From the NCBI RefSeq assembly GCF_014333425.1, contig NZ_JACRYT010000014.1:1-64000 (forward strand): DNA of 64,000 nt, read 5' to 3'. The notes beneath the pieces are model-generated. The model was not told the origin of the DNA. It saw nothing but the letters and a program-made list of their open reading frames with translations, and did no database searches. Position numbers and translations under genes: made by a program. Position 1 is the first letter of the stretch; each line of letters opens with the position of its first letter. Positions 31,189 through 64,000 of the stretch are shown here, in pieces. This DNA comes from Zhenpiania hominis (GTDB taxonomy: Bacteria > Bacillota > Clostridia > Peptostreptococcales > Anaerovoracaceae).

Positions 31189-31230
31189 CAGAAATTACCT
31201 CCCCTGTTTTTTTCTATACAACTACAGTCC

Positions 31231-31259
31231 ATTATAGCATAAAGAATCGCCCGTTGCAC
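31231..31259 (-). promoter_or_regulatory. Promoter of ftsZ inside the dcw cluster
   Basis: On the - strand GTGCAA and TATAAT are spaced by 17 bases, and TG precedes the -10 by one base (extended -10). It lies in the 134-base gap between ftsQ and ftsZ. Confidence 0.65.
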
Positions 31260-31322
31260 CTGTTTTTCCAATTAAAATACCATTTTTTTACCGGAAAAAA
31301 ACTACGACTTCCGCCTTTTTCC

Positions 31323-33424: not shown

Positions 33425-33428
33425 AACA

Positions 33429-33460
33429 CCTCCGAAACATACTCCATAGTATGCCGGAGG
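33429..33460 (-). promoter_or_regulatory. Stem-loop covering the murA ribosome-binding site
   Basis: Outer pairs 33429-33434 with 33455-33460 and inner pairs 33438-33443 with 33448-33453 form a 12-bp hairpin with a 3/1 internal bulge and a 4-base loop. On the - strand the 3' arm contains the GGAGG that serves murA. No T-run follows, so it does not look like a terminator. Confidence 0.6.
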
Positions 33461-33471
33461 CGCCGTTTAAG

Positions 33472-34575: not shown

Positions 34576-34588
34576 GATTGTCTGCTCC

Positions 34589-35716: not shown

Positions 35717-35738
35717 TGATCCCTCCAGCCTGCGCGTT

Positions 35739-37115: not shown

Positions 37116-37125
37116 TTTTCTACCT

Positions 37126-38085: not shown

Positions 38086-38087
38086 AA

Positions 38088-40662: not shown

Positions 40663-42659
40663 TTCCTATACAGATAAACGGTTCCACCCTTTTCAATCTT
40701 TTCTCCTGCTTTCGGGTACTGATCGTTGATGATGAAATTCTCATCCTGTGTACCACCGGAAGCTTCGTATTCCAAAGACAGTCCTCCGAGGATGCCGACA
40801 GCCTCTTCCAGGCCTTCGCCTCTCAGGTCAGGAACCGTAACCTGATCCTCGTTTAACGCTTCCTTTTCTTCTTTCGTTAACTGTGGCTGTAGATCCATAT
40901 ACCGCAGAGTATCTTCCAAAATCATTTTCGCGCCTGGAGCCGCAGTCTGGCTTCCATATTTCACGCCTTTTGGATTATCAACGATTACCAGGATCGCTAC
41001 CTGAGGATCATCCATCGGGGCCATCCCCAGGAAGGATGAATAGGTTTCCTCACTATAACCCCCGCCATTTTCCTTTGGTTTGTTGGCAGTTCCCGTCTTA
41101 CCTCCGACTTTATAGCCTTCCACTTTCGCTGTTCCTGCGCCGCCTTTATCTACCACGTATTCCATGATTTCGCACATCTCTTCGGCGGTCTTTTTAGAGA
41201 CTGTCTGTTTTACGATTTTGGTGCTGAACTCTTTTACCGTGTCTCCATTTTCATCTACCAGTGCTTTTACCAGACGGGGCTGCATCAGTTTCCCTTCGTT
41301 TCCAAGAGAAGATATCGCTGTAATCAGCTGAATCGGAGTTACAGCCACCCCCTGCCCGTATCCCATCGTTGCAAGGCCTACCGGGCCGGCCGTATCCTTA
41401 TCCTGAAGGATCGAATTTCCTTCTCCCGGAAAATCAATTCCTGTTTTTTCCGTAATGCCAAACGTTTCCAGATAGTTGTAGAATTTGTTGATCCCCAGTC
41501 TCTGCGCCAGCCTTACGAAAACCGGGTTGCAGGAATTTCCGACCGCTTCTTCCAGGGTCTGCGTTCCATGCGGATTGCCTCTTCTCCAACAGTGAAGGGT
41601 TGTTCCCGATACGTCAATGGCTCCTGTACAGGTAAAGTGTTCGTTGATGGTGGTCTCTCCTTCTTCCAGGGCCATCGCAGTCGTCAGCAGCTTGAATGTG
41701 GAGCCCGGCTCGTAAACGTCACTGATCAGGGAGTTTCTCCACATATTATTCCAGTATTCCGTTTTTTCGCTGTTTGACATGTTGTTTACTTTTTCCTGTT
41801 CGCTCTTCGACAGCGGAGTTTTCGCGTCGTTGGGATCAAATTCCGGCGTCTGGGCCAGAGCCAGAATATCACCGGTCTTCGGCTCCATCATAATGCACAT
41901 GACTCCATCCGCCTTCGTATTTTTCTGAACCGTTTTCAGGGATTTTTCCACATAATGCTGAATGGTTTCATCAATGGTCAGAACCAGTCCCAGGCCGTCT
42001 TCCGCCTGATAGTATTTTTCATCTCCATACGCGAGATCGTTTCCTGCTACGTCTGTATTTTTAATCCAGCGGCCGGAAATACCGGAAAGATACTGATTAT
42101 ACTGAAGCTCCAGGCCGGAAAGACCGGTGTTGTCATCTGTAACGCTACCCAGTGTATGAGACAAAAAAGCCCCCATAGGATAATACCGCTTCACATCCTC
42201 GGCGATCTCTATGCCCGGAAGTTCCGCATCTCTGATTTTATCGGCAGTTTCTTTGTTCAGGTATTTATCCACCTTTACCAGCGCCTGGTTTTGGGTAATC
42301 AGTTCTTTGATCTCATCTTCCTCTTTTCCCAGGATCTCAGCCAGCTTGCGGGCAGTTTTTTCAACGTTGGCTTCTTTTTTGGCCTCCGTTTTTCCTGTCC
42401 GGACATTGGCAGGTCTGGCCCATACCGAATAGCATGTGGCGCTGACTGCCAACTCATTACCGTTGGTATCATAAATAACGCCTCGCTTTGCCGCAATCGG
42501 CGTGTCTCTGGTCTGTTGTTCGGTGGCCATTGTTGAATATTCTTCCCCTTTGACAATCTGAATCCACCCCAGGCGGAAGCACAAAAGAATGCACATGCCA
42601 TATAAAATCGCTGCCGCCGCGATGATTCTCTTTTTACTTTTATTCAGTGGCTTTGTCAT
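40659..42659 (-). CDS. ftsI: Division/sporulation transpeptidase PBP (FtsI/SpoVD class) with one PASTA domain
   Basis: 666 residues, class B PBP. One N-terminal membrane anchor (about 11-31); a dimerisation/pedestal domain starting RGVIYDTNGNELA; a transpeptidase domain with active-site STFK near residue 320, SCN near 371 and KTGTA near 523; and a single PASTA domain (about 603-666) opening VTVPDLRGEGLEE. It cross-links septal peptidoglycan with FtsW. The internal ATG 42659 fits the anchor and has GGGGGAG upstream. A hairpin followed by a T-run lies between ftsL and this gene. Confidence 0.9.
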   Translation of the reverse strand: MTKPLNKSKKRIIAAAAILYGMCILLCFRLGWIQIVKGEEYSTMATEQQTRDTPIAAKRGVIYDTNGNELAVSATCYSVWARPANVRTGKTEAKKEANVEKTARKLAEILGKEEDEIKELITQNQALVKVDKYLNKETADKIRDAELPGIEIAEDVKRYYPMGAFLSHTLGSVTDDNTGLSGLELQYNQYLSGISGRWIKNTDVAGNDLAYGDEKYYQAEDGLGLVLTIDETIQHYVEKSLKTVQKNTKADGVMCIMMEPKTGDILALAQTPEFDPNDAKTPLSKSEQEKVNNMSNSEKTEYWNNMWRNSLISDVYEPGSTFKLLTTAMALEEGETTINEHFTCTGAIDVSGTTLHCWRRGNPHGTQTLEEAVGNSCNPVFVRLAQRLGINKFYNYLETFGITEKTGIDFPGEGNSILQDKDTAGPVGLATMGYGQGVAVTPIQLITAISSLGNEGKLMQPRLVKALVDENGDTVKEFSTKIVKQTVSKKTAEEMCEIMEYVVDKGGAGTAKVEGYKVGGKTGTANKPKENGGGYSEETYSSFLGMAPMDDPQVAILVIVDNPKGVKYGSQTAAPGAKMILEDTLRYMDLQPQLTKEEKEALNEDQVTVPDLRGEGLEEAVGILGGLSLEYEASGGTQDENFIINDQYPKAGEKIEKGGTVYLYRK

Positions 42660-42676
42660 ACGCTCCCCCATACTAC

Positions 42677-42728
42677 AAAAAAGTCCAGATATCTTTTCCG
42701 CATCCTGCTGCCTCATCAAAATATCTGG
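42677..42728 (-). terminator. Hairpin with T-run between ftsL and the PBP gene
   Basis: An 8-bp perfect stem (42685-42692 with 42721-42728) encloses a 28-base loop. On the - strand it is followed within two bases by TTTTTT. This looks like an intra-operon attenuator or a partial terminator. The right side also carries T residues for the + strand. Confidence 0.5.
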
Positions 42729-42777
42729 TATCTTTTTTTCTTATTTTAGTTTCTTCCTAAATTATACTTTTGCAGGG

Positions 42778-43212
42778 TCAATTATATGCCTGCTTCCTCA
42801 TGATGTCCGCAAACCCATCTTTCGGCAAGTCTTCCTCTGTCAGATATACAACCTGCTTAGACGACGGATATACCATTCCCTGTTTGTCCATGGCTTTTTC
42901 TTCGAGAGCTTCAATATTGCTCTCGCTGTAAACCGCTACATTCAGGTTTTCGATCTCCGCTTCCAGTTCATGGTTCTGCTGGATAATCTGATTTGTTTCG
43001 TATTTGATGGACGCAGCGAAGGCAGTCGTAATAATTAAACCAATACAAAGAATTCCTGCCACAACGGTAAGAAGCAGCAGACGCGTTTTGTCCTTTGCTG
43101 TAATGCCGCTTTTCTGGGGCTTTGGTTTTTTTCTAGGTGCCTTGGGCTTCATATCCAGCCCGTATTTTTGATAATTCTCCTGGTATTCATACCATTTTTC
43201 TGCTGCTATCAT
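42778..43212 (-). CDS. ftsL: Cell division protein FtsL
   Basis: 144 residues with low sequence conservation but typical shape: a basic cytosolic N-terminus (about 1-43), one membrane segment (about 45-68), then a leucine-zipper-like coiled coil (about 70-108) and a short tail. It bridges FtsQ to the transpeptidase. Position directly after rsmH supports the call. Confidence 0.8.
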   Translation of the reverse strand: MIAAEKWYEYQENYQKYGLDMKPKAPRKKPKPQKSGITAKDKTRLLLLTVVAGILCIGLIITTAFAASIKYETNQIIQQNHELEAEIENLNVAVYSESNIEALEEKAMDKQGMVYPSSKQVVYLTEEDLPKDGFADIMRKQAYN

Positions 43213-43215
43213 CTC

Positions 43216-44154
43216 TTACCTCTTTTTTTCAATTACCCTGAGTTTCGCGCTCCTCGCTCTGGGATTTTCTTCAATTTCCCCTTCTGTAGGGAGTATTGGT
43301 TTTCCTGTCACTTTCTTAACATCCGCTTTTTTCCCACAGACGCATACTGGAAATTCTTTCGGACATGTGCATGGATTCGCCCTTTTATTGAAAGCTTCCT
43401 TTACAATCCGATCCTCCAGCGAATGGAAGGTAATGATACAAAGCCTTCCTTTATCAGCAAGCACGTCGCAGAATTCTTCGACAGCCCGCTTCAGCTGGCC
43501 CAGCTCATCGTTAACTTCAATGCGGATCGCCTGGAACGTGCGTTTCGCCGGATGCGGCCCGCTGCGTCTGGCTGATGCGGGAATTGCCGCTTTTATGATT
43601 TCTACCAGCTCTCCGGTTGTTTCCAGAGGCTTGTCCTTTCTTTTTTGTACAATGAATTTACTGATTCTGGAGGCCCATCGTTCTTCCCCGTAATTCCGAA
43701 TGACCTCTGTCAGCTCCTGTTCGCTGTATGTATTAACAACTTGTGCTGCCGTAAAGGAATCATCCTGACTCATTCTCATGTCCAGCGGCGCGTCTTTCAT
43801 ATAGGAGAATCCTCTTGCCTCGTTATCCAACTGAAAGGAGGATACTCCCAGATCCAAAAGTGCGCCATTTATCTCGTAAACCCCTAATTGATCCAGCACC
43901 CTTCGGATATCCGCGTAATTGCTCTGGATAAAAAACTTTCTGCAAGGATAAGGCTTCAATCGTTCTTCCGCTGCAGAAAGAGCGTCTTTATCCCGATCGA
44001 TTCCGATCAGCGTCCCCTTTTCGCCGAGTCTTTCACAGATGCCGCGGGCATGTCCGCCTCCTCCCAGGGTGCCGTCTACATAGATCCCCTCTGGCTCAAT
44101 ATTCAAATTTTCCATGCACGCATCGTACAAAACAGAAGTATGTTTAAAAATCAT
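43216..44154 (-). CDS. rsmH: 16S rRNA (cytosine1402-N4)-methyltransferase
   Basis: 312 residues. SAM motif GTLGGGGH at residues 28-35, the acidic [10 protein letters not shown] near 52, [11 protein letters not shown] near 98, and the C-terminal [13 protein letters not shown] segment near 240. Methylates C1402 of 16S rRNA in the decoding site. It overlaps mraZ by 11 bases. Confidence 0.97.
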
Positions 44155-52496: not shown

Positions 52497-54458
52497 TTAT
52501 TTTACCAGTTTGTAATATTCCCTCGCTGTCAGGCTGTATACGGCTATATAGATAACCGCGAAGGCCAGGATGGTAGCGGCCGTAGCCCCCACAAAGAGCC
52601 ATACATTTGTAATCTGAATGGCAATCAGGAGCCGGCTCATCATATTAAAGGCAGCCGCCACATGGAAGATGGCCGCGATCAGCGGCAGGAAGAACACGAT
52701 CAGAATCTGGCTGCGGATAGACCGCTTCACCTCGGCAAGACTCATGCCCACCTTCTGCATAATGTGATAGTTTTCACTGTCCTCATAGCCTTCGGTAATC
52801 TGCTTGTAATAAATCATCAGAACCGTAGCGATGGTAAACAGAAGGCCCAGGAAAATCCCTACAAACAGCAGCCCTCCGTAAACGGAATGCAGCTCCATAG
52901 CGCTGGTCTCCCGGTTTTCAATATAAATCGATCTTCCGGTTTCTTCTGAAAGTGTGTCCGCAATCGCCCGGGTTTTGCTGTTGCTCTGAATATCCAGATC
53001 CACACCGGTAAAATAGGTTTCCTCAGAAAACGCTTCTTTGGCCGTGTTCCGAATCTCATCGACCACCTGCTGGTCTTTCACCAGGATATAATAAGGAATG
53101 GCAATGGTTCCCAGCTCAGCGGCGGTCTTAAAATCCGAAGACCCATCCTTTACCCGAAATTCCATGGAACCGATGCCGAAGGTCTCCGAATTCACTTCCC
53201 GCTCGCCTCCGATGATAATTTCATCTTCCTCAAGAGGCCCGTAGTCCTTTTCCAGACGGCTCCCTTCCATAGGCACCAGATAAATCTGCACCAGTTCCTT
53301 ATCCACGGAGAAGGTGTCAATCGGAATCACGCGGTTTCCCTGTTCTTCCCCATAAGCGGCAACACAGGGGTAGGACACCACCTTTCCATGCTCCGCTCCA
53401 TATCGGCTGAGAATCGTCTCAAACTGGTTTTCCAGCTCCGCCGCCTTATTTTCTGTCAGTGGCTTCTGACTTCTGGCCTGAATATCATAGGGAACCTGCC
53501 GATCCAGAATATCGCTGATTCCCACCTGCATGGAAACCGTCGTGGAAATAGTTACCAGAACCATGGTGCTGAGAATGCAGATGCTGGCAAGTCCCGCCGC
53601 GTTGCGTTTCATCCGGTAGAGCATGCCAGAAACAGCGGTAAAATGCTCGGTCTTATAATAAAAAGACTTTTTCTTTTTCAGCATTTTCAGAAGGGCGATG
53701 CTCCCGGCGGTAAATAGAAGATAGGTTCCCCCGATTACAAGAATGGTGGCCGCGAAAAACACACCCAGAGCCTGAATCGGAGAAACAACGGTAATCGCCA
53801 TATAATACCCGGCTCCCGTCATTCCCAGACCCAGCAAAACCAACAACCATTTTGTCTTAGGCTCTTTTTCTCCCTGACGGCTTCCCGCCATAAGCTGAAT
53901 CGGGTTTGCCAGGCTGATTCTTCCCAGATTGCACAGCAGTACTACCAGGAAAATCGCTCCGAACAGCACCGTTGTCAGCAACGCCCCGTCCGCGGAAATC
54001 TGATATCCCATGGGAAGCTCCACAACCAGAATCCGCAGCAGCAGCAGAAAAAACAGCTTTCCAAATACCATGCCCGCGATCAACCCGATGATCAGCGAGA
54101 CAGCGGAAACGAAGAGCGTTTCCAGCAGCATGACTTTTCCGATATGGCGTTTCGCCATGCCCAGAATGTTGTAAAGGGCCAGTTCTTTTTTCCGCTGTTT
54201 AATCAGAAAGCTGTTTGTATAGAACAGAAAAATAGCGGAAAAAATACCTACCACCCACATTCCGAACTGCAGCAGGCTCCGCAGAGTCGTACCCCCGAAC
54301 ATCTTCGTTACATCCGGATTGTAGACAATCGCGGCCATAATATAGAAGATCATAATGCTGATGATACAGGTCAGCATATAAGGCACATAGCCTTTAGCGT
54401 TTTTCTTCACATTGTTCAGCGCCAGGCTTCCGTAAAAGGATTTACGCACGGTTTCCAC
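52497..54458 (-). CDS. Bce-type ABC transporter permease (FtsX-like)
   Basis: 653 residues with ten membrane segments. Two FtsX-like domains, and between TM7 and TM8 a large extracytoplasmic domain (about residues 310-525), the hallmark of BceB-type peptide-antibiotic sensing and resistance permeases. These remove or shield lipid-linked targets from bacitracin-like or lantibiotic compounds and signal to their kinase. It overlaps the ATPase gene by 17 bases. Confidence 0.88.
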   Translation of the reverse strand: METVRKSFYGSLALNNVKKNAKGYVPYMLTCIISIMIFYIMAAIVYNPDVTKMFGGTTLRSLLQFGMWVVGIFSAIFLFYTNSFLIKQRKKELALYNILGMAKRHIGKVMLLETLFVSAVSLIIGLIAGMVFGKLFFLLLLRILVVELPMGYQISADGALLTTVLFGAIFLVVLLCNLGRISLANPIQLMAGSRQGEKEPKTKWLLVLLGLGMTGAGYYMAITVVSPIQALGVFFAATILVIGGTYLLFTAGSIALLKMLKKKKSFYYKTEHFTAVSGMLYRMKRNAAGLASICILSTMVLVTISTTVSMQVGISDILDRQVPYDIQARSQKPLTENKAAELENQFETILSRYGAEHGKVVSYPCVAAYGEEQGNRVIPIDTFSVDKELVQIYLVPMEGSRLEKDYGPLEEDEIIIGGEREVNSETFGIGSMEFRVKDGSSDFKTAAELGTIAIPYYILVKDQQVVDEIRNTAKEAFSEETYFTGVDLDIQSNSKTRAIADTLSEETGRSIYIENRETSAMELHSVYGGLLFVGIFLGLLFTIATVLMIYYKQITEGYEDSENYHIMQKVGMSLAEVKRSIRSQILIVFFLPLIAAIFHVAAAFNMMSRLLIAIQITNVWLFVGATAATILAFAVIYIAVYSLTAREYYKLVK

Positions 54459-55209
54459 CTCCTGTAGCCAGCGCCGTCAGAGCGGTGGAGATCTTCTGGT
54501 ACATCTGGTCATTGCTCATATCCCCTCTGTAAATCTGATGGAATACCTGCCCGTCTTTGATGAACAAAACCCGTCCCGCTTTGCTGGCAGCCTGAATACT
54601 GTGGGTTACCATGAGTATGGTCTGCCCTTCTCCGTTTACCTTTGAAAACAGGCTCAGAAGCTGTTCGGAAGCGCGGGAATCCAGGGCTCCTGTCGGTTCG
54701 TCAGCCAGAATCAGCTTAGGATCGGTAATCAGGGCTCTGGCAATGGCAACCCGCTGTTTCTGCCCGCCGGAAAGCTCGTAGGGATATTTTTTCAGGATCC
54801 CGGAAATCCCCAGTTTTTCCGCAATGGGAGTGAGCTTGCGGCTCATTTCCTGATAATTCTTTCTTGCCAGCACCAGAGGCAGATAGATATTGTCTTCCGC
54901 GGAAAAGGTATCCAAAAGGTTAAAATCCTGAAATACGAATCCCAGATTGTTTCTCCGGAATTCCGCGATATTTTTCTCTTTAATGGATACAATGCTCTGC
55001 CCCTCCAGCAGCACCTCCCCTTTCGTCGGCTTGTCCAGGGCGGCCAGGATATTGAGCAGCGTGGTCTTTCCGGACCCGGATTCCCCCATAATGGAAATGT
55101 ACTCTCCTTCGTCCACCGTAAAGCTGACATCCTTCAGAGCCCGGACTTTCTGGCCTCCGAACCGGGTGGTATAAATTTTTTCAACGTTTTTAACGTCCAG
55201 TAATGGCAT
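54442..55209 (-). CDS. Bce-type ABC transporter ATP-binding protein
   Basis: 255 residues of the MacB/LolD/BceA group. Walker A GESGSGKTT near residue 43, signature LSGGQKQRVA near 147, Walker B LILADEPTGALDS near 165 and the switch histidine in MVTHSIQ near 203. ATG 55209 is chosen over a longer frame that covers the promoter; GGAG lies 8-9 bases upstream. Energises the permease encoded next. Confidence 0.93.
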   Translation of the reverse strand: MPLLDVKNVEKIYTTRFGGQKVRALKDVSFTVDEGEYISIMGESGSGKTTLLNILAALDKPTKGEVLLEGQSIVSIKEKNIAEFRRNNLGFVFQDFNLLDTFSAEDNIYLPLVLARKNYQEMSRKLTPIAEKLGISGILKKYPYELSGGQKQRVAIARALITDPKLILADEPTGALDSRASEQLLSLFSKVNGEGQTILMVTHSIQAASKAGRVLFIKDGQVFHQIYRGDMSNDQMYQKISTALTALATGGGNRA

Positions 55210-55248
55210 TTTGTTTTTCTCCTTTCCCTCTTCATTGAATCTGTCTAC

Positions 55249-55304
55249 ATTATAGAAAAAAGGCGGATGCTCTGCCATCGATCCGGCTTACATCCACCTT
55301 ACAT
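55249..55304 (-). promoter_or_regulatory. Promoter and probable response-regulator box for the Bce ABC genes
   Basis: On the - strand TATAAT lies at 55249-55254 with a poor -35 (TGGCAG). Upstream, ATGTAAG occurs twice (55298-55304 and 55287-55293), 11 bases apart, centred about 50 bases before the expected start. Direct repeats one helical turn apart in this position, with a weak -35, are typical for activation by an OmpR-type regulator. Confidence 0.55.
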
Positions 55305-55323
55305 TTTCGTAACCTTGCCCCCT

Positions 55324-56316
55324 TCAGGAAAAGTTTTCCCGCCTCAGATCCAGAATCACCACGGTTCCCTTACCTTCTTCCGACTCAGCGCGAATTCCGT
55401 AGGAAAGCTTTTCCATAATGAGCCTGCACAGGTACAGCCCCTGACCTGTGGATTTGCTGTACTGCCGTCCGTTTTCCCCGGTAAAGCCCTTTTCAAATAC
55501 ACGGGGCAGATCTTCTGCCCGGATGCCGATTCCCGTATCCCGGATAAAAAGCTGTTCTTCTTCCATCCAGATGAAAATGCTCCCGCCCGGCGGCGTGTAT
55601 TTTAAAGAATTGGAAAGGATCTGCCCCAATACGATAAACAGCCATTTTTCATCGGTGGCGGCGGTATAGCCGGTTTTCTGAAAATCCACGCGGATCTTCC
55701 TGCCGATAAACAGGGCCGCGTATTTTTTCAGCACTCTGGCAATCAGGGCGTCCAGCTCCACCTGTTCAAACATCAGATCCGAAGAAATATCCCGCGCCCG
55801 CACCCAGGACATGGCGGTATCCACGTATTCCTCAATATTAAAAAGCTCCATGGACATCTGCCTGCCGTCCTCACCTGCCTGGGCGCCTTTTTTCTGAAGG
55901 AGCAGTCCCATCGCCGAAATGGGAGTTTTGATCTGGTGGGCCCACAGCGTAAAATAGTCGATCAGTTCTTTCTTTTCCACATAGGCGCGGGATTCCGACA
56001 TCCGTTTTTGCCGGTGAAGTTCTTTGATAATTTCGGTATAATCCTCATCGATCTGGTTTCCAGGTTCCGGCAGATCTTCGATCTGCGCGTCAATGACTTC
56101 CGTTAAGCGCTGCAGCTGCCTGTGCTGGACGGCATATTTGCGGAAATCATAGGCCGCTATAACCCCTGCCGCAATCAGACATAAAAGCCCTCCGTACAGC
56201 ACCGCGTCCAGAGGGATCCTGCTCAGAAAAAATACGGTGGAGAAAATACACACACATACAAAGAACAGGAGGATCGCTTTTTTATGATATCTCAAATAAT
56301 CTCCCAGTATCCTCAT
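55324..56316 (-). CDS. BceS-like sensor histidine kinase
   Basis: 330 residues. Two membrane helices (about 14-33 and 38-56) are joined by only a few residues outside, the intramembrane-sensing layout of BceS kinases that take their signal from the partner transporter. Phospho-acceptor histidine in AHQIKTPIS near 130; N box NSLKYT near 232; G1 DTGIGIRAEDLPRVF near 255; G2 GQGLYL near 285. It overlaps the regulator gene by 4 bases. Confidence 0.9.
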   Translation of the reverse strand: MRILGDYLRYHKKAILLFFVCVCIFSTVFFLSRIPLDAVLYGGLLCLIAAGVIAAYDFRKYAVQHRQLQRLTEVIDAQIEDLPEPGNQIDEDYTEIIKELHRQKRMSESRAYVEKKELIDYFTLWAHQIKTPISAMGLLLQKKGAQAGEDGRQMSMELFNIEEYVDTAMSWVRARDISSDLMFEQVELDALIARVLKKYAALFIGRKIRVDFQKTGYTAATDEKWLFIVLGQILSNSLKYTPPGGSIFIWMEEEQLFIRDTGIGIRAEDLPRVFEKGFTGENGRQYSKSTGQGLYLCRLIMEKLSYGIRAESEEGKGTVVILDLRRENFS

Positions 56317-56987
56317 GCTCCCACCATATAGCCAATACCTTTCTTTGTCCGTATAAAGTCCGAAAGACCGGCGTCAGAAAGCTTCCTGCGAAGACGCGTT
56401 ACGTTGACGGTCAGAGTGTTGTCATCCACGAAGCTGTCATCCTCCCACAGCGCTTTCATAATCGCGTCTCTGGAAACGATTTCCCCGACGCGGGACATCA
56501 GACACTGAAGAATCCGGTACTCGTTTTTCGTCAGTTCAACGCGCTTTCCCTCATAAGTGAGCGTCGCGTCACTCAGATTCAGTACCGCGCCCTGATATTC
56601 CAGCGCGGCGGATGGCTCCTGAAAGGAATAGTTTCTCCGTAGCAGCGCCTGAATCTTCGCCGTCAGCACATTCAGATCAAAGGGCTTTGTAATGAAATCA
56701 TCTCCGCCCATGTTAAGCGCCATAACGATGTTCATATTATCATCCGCCGAGGAAAGAAACACAATAGGCACCCTGGAAACAGCCCGAATTTCGCCGCACC
56801 AATGATAGCCGTTGAAAAAAGGCAGACCGATGTCCAGCAAAACAAGGTGGGGCTGAAAGGCGCCGAATTCCTCCATCACCTTCTCAAAGTCGCTGACCTT
56901 CTTTGTCTCATATCCCCATTTTCCCAGATGTTCCGCCACAATTCCCGCTATGGTCGGATCATCCTCCACAATCAACACTTTGTACAA
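56313..56987 (-). CDS. BceR-like OmpR-family response regulator
   Basis: 224 residues. Receiver domain with the acidic pair in VEDD (8-10), phospho-acceptor Asp in LLDIGLP near residue 53 and Lys in ITKPFD near 101. C-terminal winged-helix DNA-binding domain (about 130-224). The start is TTG, with GGGGGAA about 8 bases upstream. It probably activates the Bce ABC promoter beside the kinase gene. Confidence 0.92.
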   Translation of the reverse strand: MYKVLIVEDDPTIAGIVAEHLGKWGYETKKVSDFEKVMEEFGAFQPHLVLLDIGLPFFNGYHWCGEIRAVSRVPIVFLSSADDNMNIVMALNMGGDDFITKPFDLNVLTAKIQALLRRNYSFQEPSAALEYQGAVLNLSDATLTYEGKRVELTKNEYRILQCLMSRVGEIVSRDAIMKALWEDDSFVDDNTLTVNVTRLRRKLSDAGLSDFIRTKKGIGYMVGA

Positions 56988-57103
56988 ATCACGTTCCCCC
57001 TTTTTCTATCATTCCCTCCTGATTTATTTTCAGTTTATCAAAAATAAGCAGTTGATACAATCCTGACTTTTAAGAATACTTCTCCTCTTTTCAAGTGCTT
57101 TAA

Positions 57104-57109
57104 ATTATA
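57104..57109 (-). promoter_or_regulatory. Probable -10 of the two-component operon
   Basis: TATAAT on the - strand, about 115 bases before the regulator start. No strong -35 is seen. The long leader (56988-57100) holds no clear riboswitch. Confidence 0.4.
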
Positions 57110-57179
57110 GTACAATGACTCCAGACAAAATAGAAAATGTCAAAATCAGCAAGAAAAAAGCGACCTTAATAAAAGGAGA

Positions 57180-57209
57180 GGATATGTATCGGGCACTTGA
57201 TACATATCC
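57180..57209. terminator. Terminator after the second ABC operon
   Basis: An 11-bp perfect inverted repeat (57180-57190 with 57199-57209, loop of 8). On the - strand it is followed by TCTCCTTTT; on the + strand by TTTTCCCTTT. Confidence 0.7.
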
Positions 57210-57246
57210 TTTTCCCTTTACTCTCCACTCCAATACAATTCAGGCT

Positions 57247-58086
57247 TTACTGCAGGTTCAGCTTTAAGCTGAGAATCCGTTCCGTTATCACATGGAACCC
57301 CACAAGCTGGACCGCGGTTAGGAGAAACAGAATTCCCGCGCCAATCTGCCCGGCCCGGAAGACGTTATCCGCTCCTCCGGAAATAACCGTATTGAGCCAT
57401 TGGCTGATCCCCAGGTTTTCCGCCGCCACCATGACAATCGCGGAGAGGATTGTAATCACAAGATTCAGCCCGATATAAGCGCCAAGGGCCAGTAGCACTC
57501 TGTGCTTATTGGCAAGCTGCCCGATAGCCAGCGACGCGTAGATCTGGTAAATGCTTTTCAGCAGGGATAGGAGGATCAGAATCACTCCTTCCACGAAAAA
57601 CAGAATGTACCAAGGGTCCTTGTCCAGAAAAGCGCCCACGGCTCGGAACATCTCCGGAACGGCTTTAAATCCATTTGCCCCCGCCAGCGCCAGTATGGAT
57701 AAAAATGCCACAATCATGCTGACCAGAACAACTCCCGCCGCTACAACGCCTTTCGATGTGATCAGCTGCCATGGTTTAACCGGAAGTGTATGCATCAGGT
57801 AGCCTTCGTCCCCCAGCAGGCCCCTGTAAAATCGCATGACGACAATTACCAGGGTTGTTACAACCAGTACGGCAAAAACCGCCGCGTACATGAGTCCGGT
57901 CACCAGTTCCACAATACCTACCAGAACATTCAGCTTCTGCTCTCCATCATCGAAAAACATATCCCCCAGAACATGGATGCTCAGGCTGAAAAGCAGACTT
58001 GCCGCGATCAGCGCGGCCCAGATAACTGCCATAAGTTTAATACTGGATCGCATCTCATATTTGATCAATTTACCTGTCATTTCCAT
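57247..58086 (-). CDS. ABC-2-like transporter permease
   Basis: 279 residues with six membrane segments arranged as in ABC-2/YtrC-type permeases; substrate unknown. It overlaps the ATPase gene by 17 bases and is the last gene of a GntR-ATPase-permease operon of the YtrA type, which in Bacillus responds to lipid II-binding antibiotics. Confidence 0.8.
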   Translation of the reverse strand: MEMTGKLIKYEMRSSIKLMAVIWAALIAASLLFSLSIHVLGDMFFDDGEQKLNVLVGIVELVTGLMYAAVFAVLVVTTLVIVVMRFYRGLLGDEGYLMHTLPVKPWQLITSKGVVAAGVVLVSMIVAFLSILALAGANGFKAVPEMFRAVGAFLDKDPWYILFFVEGVILILLSLLKSIYQIYASLAIGQLANKHRVLLALGAYIGLNLVITILSAIVMVAAENLGISQWLNTVISGGADNVFRAGQIGAGILFLLTAVQLVGFHVITERILSLKLNLQ

Positions 58087-58810
58087 TCACCCCTCTCGCA
58101 AACGGCACCATGCGAAATGTATCTCTGAAAACATCGTCGATGGATTTTCCTTCCTTCTCCTTAATCGCATCCACAGTCTCGTGCCTTACGACCTTTCCTT
58201 CTTTTATAAACACAACTTCGTCCAGCACCCTTTCAATATCTGAAATCAGATGGGTAGAAAGGATGACGGTCCCCTCCTCATTATAATTGTTGATGATCGT
58301 CGTCAGAATGTAATCTCTGGCTGCCGGATCTACGCCGGCAATGGGCTCGTCGAGAAGATAAAGCTGCGCGTTTCTGCTCATTACCAGAATCAGCTGTACC
58401 TTTTCCCTCGTCCCTTTGGACATAGTCTTAATCCGATCCTCTTTGTCGATATTCAGGGCCGCGCACATTTTTTCCGCCTTGCTCCTGTCAAAATCCTCAT
58501 AGAATTCGTCGAACATGCTCAGAATGTCTTTTACATTCATCCAGTCCGCGAAATAGGTCCGATCCGGCAGGTAACTTACAATGGATTTGGTGTAGACTCC
58601 CGGCGTCTTTCCATCGATGAAAAGCTCCCCCTTTGTCGGCTGGATCAGCCCGTTCATCAGTTTGATCATGGTGGTTTTTCCGCTCCCGTTCGGTCCCAGA
58701 AGTCCGATGACTTTTCCCCTGCCTATGGTTAACGTTACATTGTCGAGAGCAAGTTTTTTGCCGAATCCTTTGCTGACACCCCGAAATTCGGCCAGTGGCG
58801 CTTTTTTCAT
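58070..58810 (-). CDS. ABC transporter ATP-binding protein (YtrB-like)
   Basis: 246 residues. Walker A GPNGSGKTT near residue 38, Walker B LYLLDEPIAGVDP near 157 and a switch His in STHLISD near 192. The signature reads MSKGTREKVQ instead of LSGGQ, a variant seen in this family. Overlaps the GntR gene by 4 bases (ATGA), so regulator and transporter are made together. Confidence 0.9.
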   Translation of the reverse strand: MKKAPLAEFRGVSKGFGKKLALDNVTLTIGRGKVIGLLGPNGSGKTTMIKLMNGLIQPTKGELFIDGKTPGVYTKSIVSYLPDRTYFADWMNVKDILSMFDEFYEDFDRSKAEKMCAALNIDKEDRIKTMSKGTREKVQLILVMSRNAQLYLLDEPIAGVDPAARDYILTTIINNYNEEGTVILSTHLISDIERVLDEVVFIKEGKVVRHETVDAIKEKEGKSIDDVFRDTFRMVPFARGVNGNDR

Positions 58811-59175
58811 TTTTCTTCTTCCTCTCTTTCTTTTATCATCTTCACAATATCATCCGCGTTGTAGCCGATAGCGGCCATTTCTTTGATAAACCGCTCGATA
58901 CTTTCCTTGGCAATCATCTCTTTCATCCGTTTCACCAACCCTTCATCCCTTGTAACGGTTCTGCCTGCCGTCCGGTTTGTTGTTACGAATCCATCGTTTT
59001 CCAGCTCACTCAGAGCCCGCTGCATCGTATTGCGGTTGACTCCCGCGTCTTCCGCCAGTTCTCTCACCGTTGGAAACGCGCCGCCCATAGCGAACTTTCC
59101 CGCGACGATAGCGACAATCAGCTGCTGCTTCAGCTGCGGCCAGATCGGCCTGCTGTCATCAAGTTTCCATTCCAC
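58807..59175 (-). CDS. YtrA-subfamily GntR transcriptional regulator
   Basis: 122 residues: a GntR winged helix (about 8-75, with FPTVRELAEDAGVNRNT as recognition unit) and a short helical tail (about 78-122) instead of a large ligand domain, as in the YtrA subfamily. It presumably represses its own operon from the palindrome at 59227-59250. Confidence 0.92.
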   Translation of the reverse strand: MEWKLDDSRPIWPQLKQQLIVAIVAGKFAMGGAFPTVRELAEDAGVNRNTMQRALSELENDGFVTTNRTAGRTVTRDEGLVKRMKEMIAKESIERFIKEMAAIGYNADDIVKMIKEREEEEK

Positions 59176-59381: not shown

Positions 59382-59410
59382 TTGACCTTGGACCGGTTTC
59401 CCTCTATAAT
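59382..59410 (+). promoter_or_regulatory. Promoter of the blaI-blaR1 operon
   Basis: TTGACC (59382-59387) and TATAAT (59405-59410) are spaced by exactly 17 bases, 65 bases before the blaI start. Confidence 0.85.
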
Positions 59411-59411
59411 A

Positions 59412-59423
59412 TTACATATGTAA
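59412..59423 (+). promoter_or_regulatory. BlaI operator at the blaI promoter
   Basis: TTACATATGTAA is a perfect 12-bp palindrome starting two bases after the -10 box, over the expected transcript start. It shares the TTACA-NN-TGTAA form with two sites at the facing PBP promoter and with the known BlaI/MecI operator core TACA-NN-TGTA. Confidence 0.85.
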
Positions 59424-59475
59424 GTCTTACAGGCCCACGGGCCGCGGATGAAAGCGGATAAGGAGGACAGGGAAT

Positions 59476-59862
59476 ATGAAACAGGTTCCGCAGATTTCCC
59501 AGGCGGAATATGAAGTGATGAAAATAATCTGGAAGTACGCGCCCATCGCGACTTCGCAGGTCGTAGAAAGGCTGTCGGACAGCAAATGGAGTCCTAAGAC
59601 CATTCAGACCATGCTGCTGCGGTTGGTGAAAAAAGGCGCGCTTGCCAATGAAAAGCAAGGGCGTTCCTTTGTATACACGCCTCTTGTAGGCGCGGAGGAG
59701 TACCGGCTTCAGGCCAGCCACCGTTTTCTCGATCGGCTGTACGACGGCGCTCTCGGCTCTATGGTTCTGAATTTCATTGAGCAGGATCAGCTCTCTGAGG
59801 AAGAAATCCAGTCTCTAAAGGCTCTTCTGGACGGAATGGATAAAGGAGAGAAAGATGACTGA
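59476..59862 (+). CDS. blaI: BlaI/MecI-family transcriptional repressor
   Basis: 128 residues. N-terminal winged helix (about 1-80: PQISQAEYEVMKIIWKYAP, with KWSPKTIQTMLLRLVKKG as recognition region) and a C-terminal dimer helix pair (about 85-128). BlaI is cleaved or released when its partner BlaR1 senses a beta-lactam. AGGAGGA lies upstream; the gene overlaps blaR1 by 8 bases. Confidence 0.95.
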   Translation: MKQVPQISQAEYEVMKIIWKYAPIATSQVVERLSDSKWSPKTIQTMLLRLVKKGALANEKQGRSFVYTPLVGAEEYRLQASHRFLDRLYDGALGSMVLNFIEQDQLSEEEIQSLKALLDGMDKGEKDD

Positions 59863-61600
59863 TTTTGTTTTTTACGGCTTCCTCTATTCCGGGTTTCTTA
59901 TCTGCTTGATTCTATCCATTTTCCTGGTAAAAAAACTGTTTTCCCAAAGGCTTACAATCCGCTTTCATTATTACATATGGCTTGCCCTTCCCGTCAGCGC
60001 AATCGCCCTGTTTTTTCCGGATTCAGGGACTTACGGGCAAGCTCACATCGCCCAGACGGCCAGCTCCGCCGGCAGCGCTTCCGGAAGTCCTCTCTGGGGA
60101 AGCGCCGCCGGCACGCTGCAGGATTTCGCGGTAAACAGCCGCAGCGGTTTTGGAGAAACGCTGTGCATCGTGCTGTCTGCCATCTGGCTGGCAGGAATTC
60201 TGATAATGCTAACCCGACTGGGAATCGCGCTGCGCCATACTGCAGGACTCTGCCGGAGAGCCGCATCCCTGAAAGCAGAACAACAGACTTTCGCGGTCTG
60301 TGAGTCCGCGGCGGATCTTTTAAATCTGAGACAGCCTTATCCAGTAGCCATTTCCGCGGAAATTCAGAGCCCCGCTACGGTTCGCGTGCTGCGGCCTCAG
60401 GTGCTGCTGCCCGTTTCTTGCGTCCACGGGCAGGAGAAGGATCTCCGCTATATCCTGCTCCATGAATTCACGCACTGCAAATATCGCGATCCCCTGTTCA
60501 ACCTTCTGATGCAGCTATTTCTCTGCCTCAACTGGATGAACCCCGCAGTCTGGTATGTGGTGCGCCAGATGGAAGCAGACCGTGAAGCCTGCTGTGATCA
60601 CCTTGTTCTGGAAGCGCTGTGCGGCCGCGAACGAATCGAATACGGACACGTCCTTCTTTCCTGGGCCGGCCGCGACAAAGCAGTCGCCGCTGTCGGAATG
60701 GGCAGCGGCAGGACAATGCTGCACCGACGCATCCTGCGAATCGCTTCTTATAAACCCGATTCGTCCCTCCGCCAAAAAGGCAGCGCCCTGCTTCTTTTAG
60801 CGGCAATGCTGCTTACCTTTGTGCTGGCGCCATCGGTTCATGGTCTGTCTGGCAGCCGTTTCCAACCTTCCGAAGACTTAAACATCTCTTATGAAAACTT
60901 GGAATCGTATTTTGACGGACAGGAGGGCAGCTTTGTTCTGTATAGCCAGAATCAGGACCATTACACCATCTACAACAAATCTGCCAGTACAGCCAGAGTG
61001 TCGCCCAACTCCACCTACAAAATTTACAGCGCTCTGGCGGCTTTGGAGGCAGGAGTCATTGAAAGCTCAAATTCCTCACGCCAGTGGGATGGAACGAAAT
61101 ACGCTTTTCCCCAGTGGAACCGCAGGCAAACACTCCGATCTGCCATGCAAAATTCGGTTAACTGGTATTTCCAGGGACTGGATCAGCAAATGGGACAAGA
61201 CGCGCTTCAGGACTTTTATCATAAAATCGGCTATGGGAATGAAAATTTAAACGGCGGGATTTCCAGCTACTGGATGGAATCTTCGCTGAAAATCTCGCCG
61301 CTGGAACAGACCATGCTGCTTACGGACTTTTATGAAAATCAGTGGCATTTGAAAGAAAGCTCTGTAAGCGCCGTGAAAGACGCACTGCTGATTTCCCAAA
61401 ATAAAGGCGTCCGCCTTTCCGGCAAAACAGGAACCGGTATGAAAGACGGACGCGAAATGAGCGGATGGTTTATCGGATACGTAGAGTCTTCCCAAGGGCT
61501 TTTCGTTTTTGCCCTCAATCTCCAGGGAGAGTCCGGCGCTTCGGGAAGCCGCGCCGCCCAGATCGCCCTCCGCATTTTAGAAGACCGTCAGATTCTCTGA
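59855..61600 (+). CDS. blaR1: BlaR1/MecR1-type beta-lactam sensor-transducer
   Basis: 581 residues. Four membrane helices frame an M56 metalloprotease domain whose zinc motif HEFTH is at residues 203-207, with the third ligand region MEADREACCDH near 240. The C-terminal extracellular sensor is a class D beta-lactamase-like domain with S386-T-Y-K389, SVN near 435 and KTGTG near 524. All catalytic elements for both sensing and proteolysis are kept, so it should be functional. A beta-lactam acylating S386 would switch on proteolysis and relieve BlaI. Confidence 0.95.
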   Translation: MTDFVFYGFLYSGFLICLILSIFLVKKLFSQRLTIRFHYYIWLALPVSAIALFFPDSGTYGQAHIAQTASSAGSASGSPLWGSAAGTLQDFAVNSRSGFGETLCIVLSAIWLAGILIMLTRLGIALRHTAGLCRRAASLKAEQQTFAVCESAADLLNLRQPYPVAISAEIQSPATVRVLRPQVLLPVSCVHGQEKDLRYILLHEFTHCKYRDPLFNLLMQLFLCLNWMNPAVWYVVRQMEADREACCDHLVLEALCGRERIEYGHVLLSWAGRDKAVAAVGMGSGRTMLHRRILRIASYKPDSSLRQKGSALLLLAAMLLTFVLAPSVHGLSGSRFQPSEDLNISYENLESYFDGQEGSFVLYSQNQDHYTIYNKSASTARVSPNSTYKIYSALAALEAGVIESSNSSRQWDGTKYAFPQWNRRQTLRSAMQNSVNWYFQGLDQQMGQDALQDFYHKIGYGNENLNGGISSYWMESSLKISPLEQTMLLTDFYENQWHLKESSVSAVKDALLISQNKGVRLSGKTGTGMKDGREMSGWFIGYVESSQGLFVFALNLQGESGASGSRAAQIALRILEDRQIL

Positions 61601-61606
61601 CAGCCA

Positions 61607-61636
61607 GCCGGCGGCTTTTAATCCGCCGGCATATAT
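61607..61636 (+). terminator. Terminator after blaR1
   Basis: An 8-bp GC-rich perfect stem (61607-61614 with 61623-61630) is followed by ATATATTTTT on the + strand. Its right half lies inside the last codons of the convergent PBP gene. Confidence 0.65.
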
Positions 61637-63678
61637 TTTTGAAGGATTTTTTTACTCTTATTCACCACATAGGCGCTGCCGCCCCTGTCCTTCACATCTT
61701 CCACCATAGTCACCAGAAGCAGGGAATTCTCTTTGTTTCCTTTTTCATTGTATACACAGAACCATCCCAACTCCGTACCGGAAGTATCATCTTGGGAAGT
61801 CTTGATCTCCGCGGTTCCTGTTTTTCCTGCCAGGAGGGTGTCGGAAAGCTGCGCCCCGTGTCCGGTACCGTTTTCGTTTTGAATCACTTCAATCAGATCC
61901 GAGCGAATCTGAGATACAGCGCTTTTGCTGAACACATCTTCCAACCAGGTTTCGGTCTTGCCGCTGGTTTCCAAATACGGCTTTATCATGTCTCCTTCAT
62001 TAAAAAACGCCGAGTACATACTAGCCAGATGCAGGGGATTCACAAGGATCTCCCCCTGTCCGTACCCGCTGTCCGCCAGTTGAATTTCTGTGGACATCGG
62101 CTTTCCATCATTGGTATACTGAGACGGGTTCATCTCCACCGCAAAGGGAATCTCCTGTCCGAATCCCGCTTTCTGAAGAGACTGGGCCAGGGTATCCGCC
62201 CCAATCTGCAGAGCCGCCTTGGCGAAATAAATATTGTCCGAATAAATCAGAGCGTTTTTCAGGTTGGCTGCTCCGCTGTATTCATGAAGGGTTGTCACAC
62301 TATATCCGCCCCAGCTGCTGTCTTTCTGCCAGCTGAGACCGCTGTGCCCCATATCCTGATCGGCCTCCAGCTTTCCCGAAGTGATACCGACAGCTCCTAC
62401 AATGGGCTTCAAAGAAGATCCCGGACACCATGTTTGTTTAAAGCGGTTATACATGGGACTGTCTTTATCATTATTCAGTTCCTTCCAGCGGTTTTCCGAC
62501 ATACCCACTACAAAGTCATTGCTGTCATAGGAAGGCGTGCTGACTAGCGCCAGGACCTCGCCGGTCTTTGGATTCATGGCTACGGTACAGCTTTTGTCCT
62601 CTTTATAGGTATCATACAGGGCGCTCTGAAGCTGAGCGTTGATTGTAAGATGAATATCCTCTCCATCCTTCTGCTTCGTCTCCGCCAGCACCGCTTTTTC
62701 GTTTCCGTCTTCATTGTAAATCACAATTTTTTCGCCGTCGATACCGTGCAGCCGCTGCTCATACAGCTTTTCCAGGCCGCTCTTTCCGATGACACTGTAT
62801 TCATCGTATCCCTTGTCTTTTCGTGATTCCAGCTCTTCAGCGCTGATTCCCTGTACATATCCCACCAGGTGCGCTGTATCTTCAGCCAAAGGGTAAACCC
62901 GGCTTTCTTCATCGCCGATGATCACTCCCGGAATCTCCAGCAGCTGTTTCTGCACTTCCGCGTTTTCCAGATCCACGGTACTGGAAGAATTTTCATTGAC
63001 CTTTTTCAGCTTTTTAATAGGTACCAGCAGATCATCCTTAACCCATTCCGCGTCCAGCTTATTCTCAATATCGGAAACCGACATATCCAGAAGCTCCGCC
63101 ATTCTTTTCAGATCCGCGGAAGGCTCTTCGCTCATTTTTCCGGGAATCAAACCGACAGAAGCCACAGCTCCCTTTCCTGCCAAAAGCTTTCCGTTCCGAT
63201 CGTAGATATTTCCCCTTTCCGCTTCTAAAGTTACGACTTTTACGGTATCCTCGCTGCCAAGCTGGGGAAAAATCAGTCCATCGGTCCAGGCAATCCGGTA
63301 TCTCCCGTCTTCTTTATGTATATTCATTTCATTTGGAAAACGGATTTCCCCTGCCGAAGAATCCAGGATCGTCCGATAAGAAACGGCCCCTTCTTTTTCC
63401 TTAAAAACCCGGATCGTAATATTCTTCGCTCCGATGCCTTCATATATATTTTGATTGCGGGTGACAAATTCCTTTTTACTCACCTGGTTTCTGCTTTCCT
63501 CGTCCAACATTTCGTACATGGAATCATACTCCTGCCGCTCAATACAGGCCATATACTGTTTCAAAACCGCTTCCGGCGATTTGAGGATCGCAAACCTGTA
63601 AATCAGCAGAGCCGCGGCGATCAGGATCAACACCCCCGCCACAATAACCAAAATCTTATGTTTTTTCAAAAGCTCCAT
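61618..63678 (-). CDS. MecA/PBP2a-type class B penicillin-binding protein
   Basis: 686 residues. Membrane anchor (about 9-28), then an NTF2-like MecA N-domain (about 30-145: SPEAVLKQYMACIERQEYD start), a dimerisation/pedestal domain (RGNIYDRNGKLLA near 160), and a transpeptidase domain with S421-S-L-K424, SDN near 480 and KTGTAE near 618. This domain order is that of low-affinity PBPs such as PBP2a. GGAGGA precedes the ATG. Its promoter carries two BlaI-type operators, so it should be induced by beta-lactams through the facing blaI-blaR1 pair. Low affinity itself cannot be proved from sequence. Confidence 0.9.
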   Translation of the reverse strand: MELLKKHKILVIVAGVLILIAAALLIYRFAILKSPEAVLKQYMACIERQEYDSMYEMLDEESRNQVSKKEFVTRNQNIYEGIGAKNITIRVFKEKEGAVSYRTILDSSAGEIRFPNEMNIHKEDGRYRIAWTDGLIFPQLGSEDTVKVVTLEAERGNIYDRNGKLLAGKGAVASVGLIPGKMSEEPSADLKRMAELLDMSVSDIENKLDAEWVKDDLLVPIKKLKKVNENSSSTVDLENAEVQKQLLEIPGVIIGDEESRVYPLAEDTAHLVGYVQGISAEELESRKDKGYDEYSVIGKSGLEKLYEQRLHGIDGEKIVIYNEDGNEKAVLAETKQKDGEDIHLTINAQLQSALYDTYKEDKSCTVAMNPKTGEVLALVSTPSYDSNDFVVGMSENRWKELNNDKDSPMYNRFKQTWCPGSSLKPIVGAVGITSGKLEADQDMGHSGLSWQKDSSWGGYSVTTLHEYSGAANLKNALIYSDNIYFAKAALQIGADTLAQSLQKAGFGQEIPFAVEMNPSQYTNDGKPMSTEIQLADSGYGQGEILVNPLHLASMYSAFFNEGDMIKPYLETSGKTETWLEDVFSKSAVSQIRSDLIEVIQNENGTGHGAQLSDTLLAGKTGTAEIKTSQDDTSGTELGWFCVYNEKGNKENSLLLVTMVEDVKDRGGSAYVVNKSKKILQKYMPAD

Positions 63679-63699
63679 CTCTATCTTCCTCCATTACAC

Positions 63700-63711
63700 T
63701 TACATTTGTAA
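63700..63711 (-). promoter_or_regulatory. BlaI operator 1 at the PBP promoter
   Basis: TTACATTTGTAA, a TTACA-NN-TGTAA palindrome, lies downstream of the -10 box between promoter and ribosome site. Its centre is 24 bases from that of operator 2. Confidence 0.85.
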
Positions 63712-63720
63712 TCTTTTTAA

Positions 63721-63749
63721 ATCTTACACCTGTAAGCGATAAAAGTCAA
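63721..63749 (-). promoter_or_regulatory. Promoter of the MecA-type PBP gene
   Basis: On the - strand TTGACT (63744-63749) and TAAGAT (63721-63726) are spaced by 17 bases. Operator 2 overlaps the spacer and -10. Confidence 0.85.
63724..63735 (-). promoter_or_regulatory. BlaI operator 2 at the PBP promoter
   Basis: TTACACCTGTAA overlaps the -10 box and spacer, a position that would block polymerase directly. Confidence 0.85.
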
Positions 63750-63823: not shown

Positions 63824-64000
63824 CTAGTCCAGATAAGTCACTAAATCTTCCACACTTTTGCGTCTCGGCGCTTTGGGCTCTTCATCCGGATACCCCATAG
63901 CAATCAGCGCCGCCACTTTTTGACCTTCCGGAACCGGGATAACCTCGCTTACTTTCGATTCATCAAAAATTCCCATAATAACGGTGCCTACCCCTTTGTC
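63824..64000 (-). CDS. Nitroreductase family protein (3' part, runs off the window)
   Basis: The last 58 codons are present, ending TAG at 63824-63826. The encoded C-terminus has the nitroreductase pattern: GVGTVIMGIFDE, then PVPEGQKVAALIAMGYP followed by DEEPKAPRRKSVEDLV. These FMN enzymes use NAD(P)H to reduce nitroaromatics or related compounds. The start lies beyond the window. Confidence 0.85.
   Translation of the reverse strand, partial: DKGVGTVIMGIFDESKVSEVIPVPEGQKVAALIAMGYPDEEPKAPRRKSVEDLVTYLD

Follow-up and report, generated by a model that had tools for sequence, protein, structure and literature searches.

A blaI-blaR1 pair facing a class B penicillin-binding protein gene, with matching predicted operators: a probable mec-like beta-lactam bypass

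In this work, we describe three genes in the last 5 kb (59382-63749) of a 64-kb stretch of DNA, hereafter the window, that very probably form an inducible, chromosomal, mec-like beta-lactam bypass. A repressor gene, blaI, and a sensor-protease gene, blaR1, are read towards the gene of a class B penicillin-binding protein (PBP) on the opposite strand, and one palindrome, TTACANNTGTAA, occurs at the promoter of blaI (once) and at that of the PBP gene (twice), each time as an exact match and nowhere else in the 64 kb. An earlier note on this DNA had proposed such a module, and its coordinates for the three genes and the three sites were all borne out, as was this distribution of the palindrome. 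Two relatives carry the same operators at the same promoters, and among the PBP loci that we surveyed in other genomes the operator was found upstream of the PBP gene only beside blaI-blaR1.

Genes, operators and a predicted switch

BlaI (59476-59862, + strand, 128 aa) carries the repressor domain Penicillinase_R (PF03965, 125.4 bits against a cut-off of 22.6) and scores below the cut-offs of the narrower NCBIfam BlaI and MecI models. In an alignment with MecI and BlaI structures, its VLNF, with LNF at residues 98-100, aligns with the LNF of staphylococcal BlaI/MecI, an element that we take to be the cut site. The gene overlaps by 8 nt that of blaR1 (59855-61600, + strand, 581 aa), whose product combines PF05569 with PF00905, matches BlaR1 structures over nearly its full length and exceeds the NCBIfam blaR1_generic model (517 bits, cut-off 400). 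As had been claimed, both halves of a BlaR1/MecR1 sensor are present, namely an M56 protease with its HExxH (HEFTH, 203-207) and a class D-like sensor with its SxxK, SxN and KTG (STYK 386-389, SVN 434-436, KTG 524-526). To judge from their sequences, BlaR1 and BlaI retain the catalytic, sensor and cut-site motifs, a point in favour of the proposed bypass. The PBP gene (61618-63678, - strand, 686 aa) encodes MecA_N (PF05223), dimerisation (PBP_dimer, PF03717) and transpeptidase (PF00905) domains, all three over their cut-offs, and has the SxxK, SDN and KTG of a MecA_N-type class B PBP at residues 421-424 (SSLK), 480-482 (SDN) and 619-622 (KTGT).

The blaI-blaR1 promoter (59382-59410, + strand; TTGACC-17 nt-TATAAT) scored 11/12 in a consensus scan and the PBP promoter (63749-63721, - strand; TTGACT-17 nt-TAAGAT) 9/12. 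The near-consensus promoters of the earlier note are thus in place, but its positioning of every site on a -10 or start region was not exact. Operator 1 (TTACATATGTAA, 59412-59423) lies just 3' of the blaI -10, with one base between. Operator 2 (TTACATTTGTAA on the + strand, 63700-63711) lies in the transcription-start region of the PBP promoter, from 10 bp downstream of the -10, and operator 3 (TTACACCTGTAA on the + strand, 63724-63735) falls mostly in the spacer of that promoter and takes in 3 bases of its -10. Scored against the mec/bla consensus of 18 positions quoted in an excerpt of PMC5341023, they agree at 17, 17 and 15 positions, respectively. Base composition alone predicts 0.07 exact copies of TTACANNTGTAA in 64 kb and 0.00035 in both promoter intergenic regions combined, and in 300 first-order Markov simulations the mean was 0.03 and no sequence had more than one; with up to one mismatch, the window has 7 copies against 0.92 in shuffles. 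Sites of one consensus thus stand at both the regulator and the output promoter, as in an inducible mec/bla regulon, and we regard the three palindromes as predicted BlaI operators of the mec/bla class. In the window, the promoter scan gave 8 promoter-like sites, with 4.4 +/- 2.1 in shuffles, so that the weight of the promoters comes from their conservation.

The blaR1 and PBP genes are convergent. The earlier note had placed the PBP 4 kb away; this describes the promoters, which are 4.3 kb apart, but not the genes, whose 3' ends are separated by 17 bp. The module does not have the arrangement of a mec divergon, in which the PBP and regulator genes diverge from a shared operator region.

We modelled the switch on S. 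aureus BlaR1-BlaI as described in an excerpt of PMC9834060. When drug is absent, BlaI dimers would occupy the one blaI-blaR1 operator and the two PBP operators and hold both promoters down. A beta-lactam would acylate the BlaR1 sensor at Ser386, and the zinc protease of BlaR1 (HEFTH) would then cut BlaI, probably between Asn99 and Phe100. With both promoters open, the cell would renew its sensor and would also make a class B transpeptidase of the PBP3/PBP4(5)/PBP2a group, which would keep cross-linking while the other PBPs are blocked.

Conservation, distribution and setting

To place the module among relatives, we used a family sample of 296 genomes from the family of genome G100, to which we infer that the window belongs; among 245 genomes of the class of Blautia sp. 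An81 (G003), presumably Clostridia, the arginyl-tRNA synthetases nearest to that of the window are those of G100 (76%) and G044 (75%). At thresholds of E <= 1e-120 for the PBP and E <= 1e-40 for BlaR1, the family sample held the PBP in 3 genomes and BlaR1 in 5, with both in 2, G550 and G612 (p 0.0007 for co-occurrence). Both of these carry the module, complete with the two promoters, the operator of blaI and, at almost the same spacing, the operator pair of the PBP gene, and their PBPs are 70-71% identical to that of the window. In G550 the genes converge directly, with ends about 20 bp apart, and in G612 they converge around three intervening genes, which encode a BCCT transporter, a protein with no Pfam match and a sigma-54 activator. 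The three aligned PBP promoters share an invariant TTGAC (3/3), a spacer of 17 nt, the -10 region and a pair of operators at a distance of 23-24 bp, and the flanks have diverged; operator 2 is conserved in G612 and G550, and operator 3 holds the same promoter position in all three. Across 8 aligned blaI promoters, chosen from loci already having a site, the TTGAC and TATA columns are invariant and one operator follows the -10 in each.

The same plan was found further afield. BlaR1 was detected in 8 of 119 relatives of G304 (E <= 1e-60), and in 5 of the 8 (G304, G394, G395, G396 and G399) blaI-blaR1 faces a PBP gene, with the core palindrome TACANNTGTA upstream of both; four of these have about 300-450 bp between the gene ends, and G395 has about 6 kb. 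In G400 the PBP match is short, confined to residues 582-634, and lies about 1 kb from the contig start, blaR1 of G398 stops at a contig edge, and no PBP match was found in G489 within the 12 kb read. In a class sample of 391 genomes (E <= 1e-150 for the PBP, E <= 1e-60 for BlaR1), the PBP occurs in 23 genomes (24 loci) and BlaR1 in 6. Adding the 3 family-sample loci gave 27 PBP loci, whose upstream stretches of 351-498 bp contained TACANNTGTA in three cases (G304, G550 and G612), all beside blaI-blaR1. Put differently, the operator stands at 3 of 4 PBP loci near blaI-blaR1 and at none of the 23 whose genomes gave no BlaR1 match (p 0.0014 by a one-sided Fisher test, ignoring kinship); G003, among the 23, has a BlaI-like gene (42%) elsewhere in its genome. 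Three Blautia loci obtained from a protein scan of genome contigs were also without operators.

On the PBP side, the module is followed by the end part of a nitroreductase-like gene (63824-64000, - strand; weak Pfam matches under cut-offs), and an 84% identical fragment adjoins the PBP in both G550 and G612, so that the locus is conserved on this side. Between the convergent gene ends, overlapping the 3' end of the PBP gene, is a hairpin (61607-61630; 8 bp, all GC, with a T tract on the + strand) that is likely the blaR1 terminator; its fold has -18 kcal/mol (z -2.6), and the terminator scan found 7 in the window against 4.9 +/- 2.4 in shuffles. A Pfam scan of 33 window proteins revealed neither a mobile-element protein nor a beta-lactamase, which supports the earlier note on the latter point. 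No Rfam element reached the gathering score in the window. Its housekeeping neighbours suggest that the module is chromosomal. A division and wall cluster (FtsZ, MurG, FtsW, Mur ligases, a PASTA-domain PBP and MraW) occupies 30064-44154, 15 kb from the module. Positions 52497-59175 hold ABC and FtsX-like transporter genes with frames, outside the domain scan, that resemble a histidine kinase and a response regulator, followed by a GntR and an ABC gene that adjoin the module. Sets of transporter and histidine kinase/response regulator genes often answer cell-wall antibiotics.

The PBP and the case against a bypass

The term mec-like, used in the earlier note, fits the logic of the module, with one BlaI-BlaR1 pair and one conserved operator class at both promoters, but not the family of its PBP. 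The enzyme scores 463.5 bits against the cut-off of 750 of the NCBIfam PBP2a equivalog, and its best model, the PBP4(5) equivalog (PBP4_5_Efaec), is also missed (584.2 against 700 bits). In a phmmer search of solved structures, B. subtilis PBP3 scored 526 bits, E. faecium PBP5 394 and PBP2a 393, and the window PBP is 41% identical to B. subtilis PBP3 and about 32-36% to PBP2a/MecB. The structural comparison with PBP2a that had been suggested gave a divided answer. With an AlphaFold model (mean pLDDT 82.8, 30 sequences), Foldseek placed B. subtilis PBP3 (7bn9) first by E-value, yet the query-normalised TM-score was higher to PBP2a (up to 0.79) than to PBP3 (0.63), opposing the sequence result; the rmsd was 4.4-9.8 in the best 50 rows, perhaps from inter-domain angles. 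A close relationship to MecA finds no support in the NCBIfam cut-off, the phmmer score or the identity, the TM-score pointing the other way. The window enzyme is best described as a PBP of the PBP3/PBP4(5) type under predicted beta-lactam control, and low drug affinity, which the term replacement PBP in the earlier note implies, would be expected from its family. An excerpt of PMC5656894 describes B. subtilis PBP3 as binding oxacillin and cephalexin poorly and protecting against both, their minimal inhibitory concentrations (MICs) falling about 3-4 fold when PBP3 is lost.

Several observations weigh against the proposed bypass. According to the same excerpt, cefoxitin does bind PBP3 and the penicillin G MIC is unchanged on PBP3 loss, and so the window PBP could have ordinary drug affinity. 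Operator 3 is the weakest consensus match of the three. In G246 (L066 5045-13789), blaI-blaR1 with an operator of its own lies about 4.6 kb from a PBP gene of the same family that has no upstream operator, and PBP and BlaR1 occur together in 2 genomes of the class sample (G246 and G304), which is only weakly above chance (p 0.04). Finally, the genome-wide site search proposed in the earlier note, which we ran in G550 and G612, recovered the module sites but no clear excess: the exact motif is present 7 times in G612 against 6 for a backward-pattern control, and 12 times in G550 against 8. The module sites, 3 of 12 in G550 and 3 of 7 in G612, are therefore singled out by position and conservation alone.

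Nine of the 13 non-module sites were placed against reading frames. Six lie inside a frame of at least 100 aa (L067, L069, L074, L076, L078 and L081) and three outside such frames (L071, L073 and L080). L071, in G612, is about 30 bp before a methyltransferase-like gene, and L067, also in G612, is 22 bp before a 170-aa frame, though inside another frame. For the remaining 4 sites, all in G550 (L087-L090), only the flanking letters were inspected. No firm further target was seen in G612 or G550, and we claim no wider regulon. G612 has elsewhere a class A-like match of 198 bits that is likely a class A beta-lactamase, and its 3.6-kb locus contains no TACANNTGTA; among the class A matches of G612 and G550, the remaining 11 reach at most 53 bits, and no class D beta-lactamase match exceeded its cut-off in either genome, the best two being their BlaR1 sensors. 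A second BlaI-family gene in G612 has two CTACANNTGTAG-type sites in its locus (L119 1909-1940) and may be a CopY-like regulator whose operators differ in their outer bases.

The alternative that survives best, although we regard it as unlikely, accepts that BlaI controls the PBP and sees in the PBP a backup for division or wall repair with ordinary or selectively reduced affinity, serving homeostasis or tolerance, not resistance like that of methicillin-resistant S. aureus (MRSA). The nearest solved relative, PBP3, fits such a role, being constitutive and described as a division-PBP backup whose loss has limited effect (PMC5656894, excerpt). Operator-free homologues are also spread over the class sample, in 22 of the 23 positive genomes. 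What speaks for a bypass is that wiring to a beta-lactam sensor makes most sense for a product that works in the presence of drug. Moreover, enterococcal PBP5 and PBP2a, which have the same domain plan, are low-affinity enzymes.

It is very improbable that a different repressor of the BlaI family, for example a copper regulator of the CopY type, acts at the palindromes and that the PBP stands outside any beta-lactam response. CopY boxes do have the core TACANNTGTA in common, the CopY_TcrY model matches the window BlaI below its cut-off (95.1 against 122 bits), and the second BlaI-family gene of G612 has two sites of this core in its locus. CopY copper repressors, however, carry a C-terminal cysteine metal motif, and the window BlaI is without any cysteine in its 128 aa, which rules out a CopY identity; its gene moreover overlaps blaR1. 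The outer bases also differ, TTACA..TGTAA in the module against CTACA..TGTAG at the second G612 locus, an argument weakened by the E. raffinosus module discussed below, which also has CTACA..TGTAG. That BlaI-BlaR1 is left over from a beta-lactamase system and adjoins the PBP by chance is scarcely credible: blaI-blaR1 does lie beside class D-like or metallo-beta-lactamase genes in three other members of the family sample, and the nearby PBP of G246 lacks an operator, but the two operators at the PBP promoter keep their position in two relatives about 70% identical in PBP, and the same plan recurs in G304, G394, G395, G396 and G399.

Known systems and swapped outputs

The mec divergons of staphylococci and Macrococcus (mecA, mecB and mecD with mecR1-mecI) resemble the window module in repressor type, sensor-protease type, PBP2a-superfamily class B PBP and operator consensus. 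They differ in that PBP and regulator genes diverge from one intergenic region with the sensor before the repressor, whereas in the window blaI precedes blaR1, the PBP gene is convergent and the operators are separate. In Macrococcus, mecB is divergent, plasmid-borne and followed by a class A beta-lactamase gene, unlike the window, where the proteins scanned included no mobile-element product. The bla operons of Bacillus and S. aureus use the same regulator pair and operator class with a beta-lactamase as output, where the window has a PBP; in B. licheniformis, blaI precedes blaR1, as here. B. subtilis PBP3 (PbpC), E. faecium PBP5 and E. faecalis PBP4 share the domain plan of the window PBP; PBP3 is constitutive, and no BlaI control of enterococcal PBP5 or PBP4 is known. 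Strains with mecD are described as without blaZ in an excerpt of PMC5341023, much as the window module is without a beta-lactamase among the proteins scanned. The earlier note had set control in trans against the staphylococcal arrangement. The shared operator class at both promoters stands, but the contrast does not, given that staphylococci also have control in trans, BlaR1-BlaI being able to control mecA (PMC9834060, excerpt). Similarly, convergence does set the module apart from the divergent staphylococcal mec, yet it is not unique, as it is found in a Priestia plasmid.

That plasmid carries PBP-bla-PBP2 facing blaR1-blaI, convergent like the window but with a class A beta-lactamase added. 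On E. raffinosus pHG52 (L099 3644-7878), blaI-blaR1-PBP share one strand, and one palindrome precedes blaI and another the PBP gene; unlike the window module, this one is plasmid-borne with IS6 transposase genes on both sides. Niallia pMEGANia has PBP, blaI and blaR1 on one strand (tblastn only). All three plasmid modules join BlaI-BlaR1 to a PBP of the superfamily with TACANNTGTA upstream of the PBP gene, as in the window, but gene order differs in 2 of the 3 and PBP identity to the window is about 34-36%.

Among clostridia, an excerpt of PMC8457756 describes a C. thermocellum BlaI_1845 operon of BlaI, BlaR1 and a putative peptidoglycan-synthesis gene, in which the binding motif, GACTAT, and the output gene differ from those of the window. 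C. difficile BlaR-BlaI, in an excerpt of PMC9834060, is of the same regulator kind and from the same class, with a beta-lactamase as output. Similar output may exist in the family sample, in G734 and G684, which have CDD-like class D matches under cut-offs. These two and G578 hold the other three blaI-blaR1 pairs of that sample, with differing neighbours and two palindromes of the same core close by. In G734 the class D-like frame is cut by a contig edge and is below the curated cut-off. In G684 (L092 5078-10091) the two palindromes lie between blaI-blaR1 and a divergent pair in which a class D-like gene precedes one for a SpoVD-like PBP, both under cut-offs, perhaps a combined hydrolase and PBP output. 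In G578 (L093 5062-8371) blaI-blaR1 is followed by a subclass B1 metallo-beta-lactamase gene (203.7 against a cut-off of 200), with two TACANNTGTA 26 bp apart in between, and this enzyme is likely BlaI-controlled. Such differing outputs and gene orders indicate that the controller is modular, that gene order is free and that the convergent order is not special.

We also built a maximum-likelihood tree of 38 PBPs (37 loci, which are not an even sample, plus the window), with MecB on a long branch. The window groups with G550 and G612 (100/100), the five members of the G304 group come together in another part of the tree (100/100), and operator-free rows stand between. Over the whole set, with the plasmid rows counted, the operator label must have changed at least 4 times on well-supported branches. 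A repeat tree of 37 rows gave the same outcome. The plasmid rows that carry the operator-free label, L096 and L098, have no site within 450 bp upstream of the PBP gene. The tree fits several operator gains and, equally, losses since an ancestor that had the operator, or transfer. We tentatively suggest, as a possibility short of an even chance, that BlaI-BlaR1 is a plug-in controller whose outputs have been swapped among lineages, and that in Clostridia it took over a widespread, operator-free PBP3/PBP4(5)-type enzyme at least twice, independently of the staphylococcal mec lineage.

Relative to known mec and bla systems, what differs in the window module is the branch of the PBP superfamily, the gene order and the bacterial class; the controller and the operator are the same. 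A search of open-licence literature, to which subscription papers are outside scope and which is weak for that reason, gave no BlaI-controlled MecA-type PBP in Clostridia among the matches listed.

Altogether, if our inference is true, some anaerobes carry a beta-lactam-inducible PBP bypass, and because its PBP falls below the PBP2a cut-off, it would escape a mecA search that relies on the curated PBP2a model. With its operator pair at a fixed spacing, the module is easy to locate and to test. It would be a second, distant instance of operator-controlled PBP replacement and a route to asking in what way a housekeeping PBP turns into an inducible factor of resistance. Should the tentative plug-in reading also prove true, inducible replacement of PBPs in the manner of MRSA would be an old chromosomal trait of anaerobes, and a modular one.

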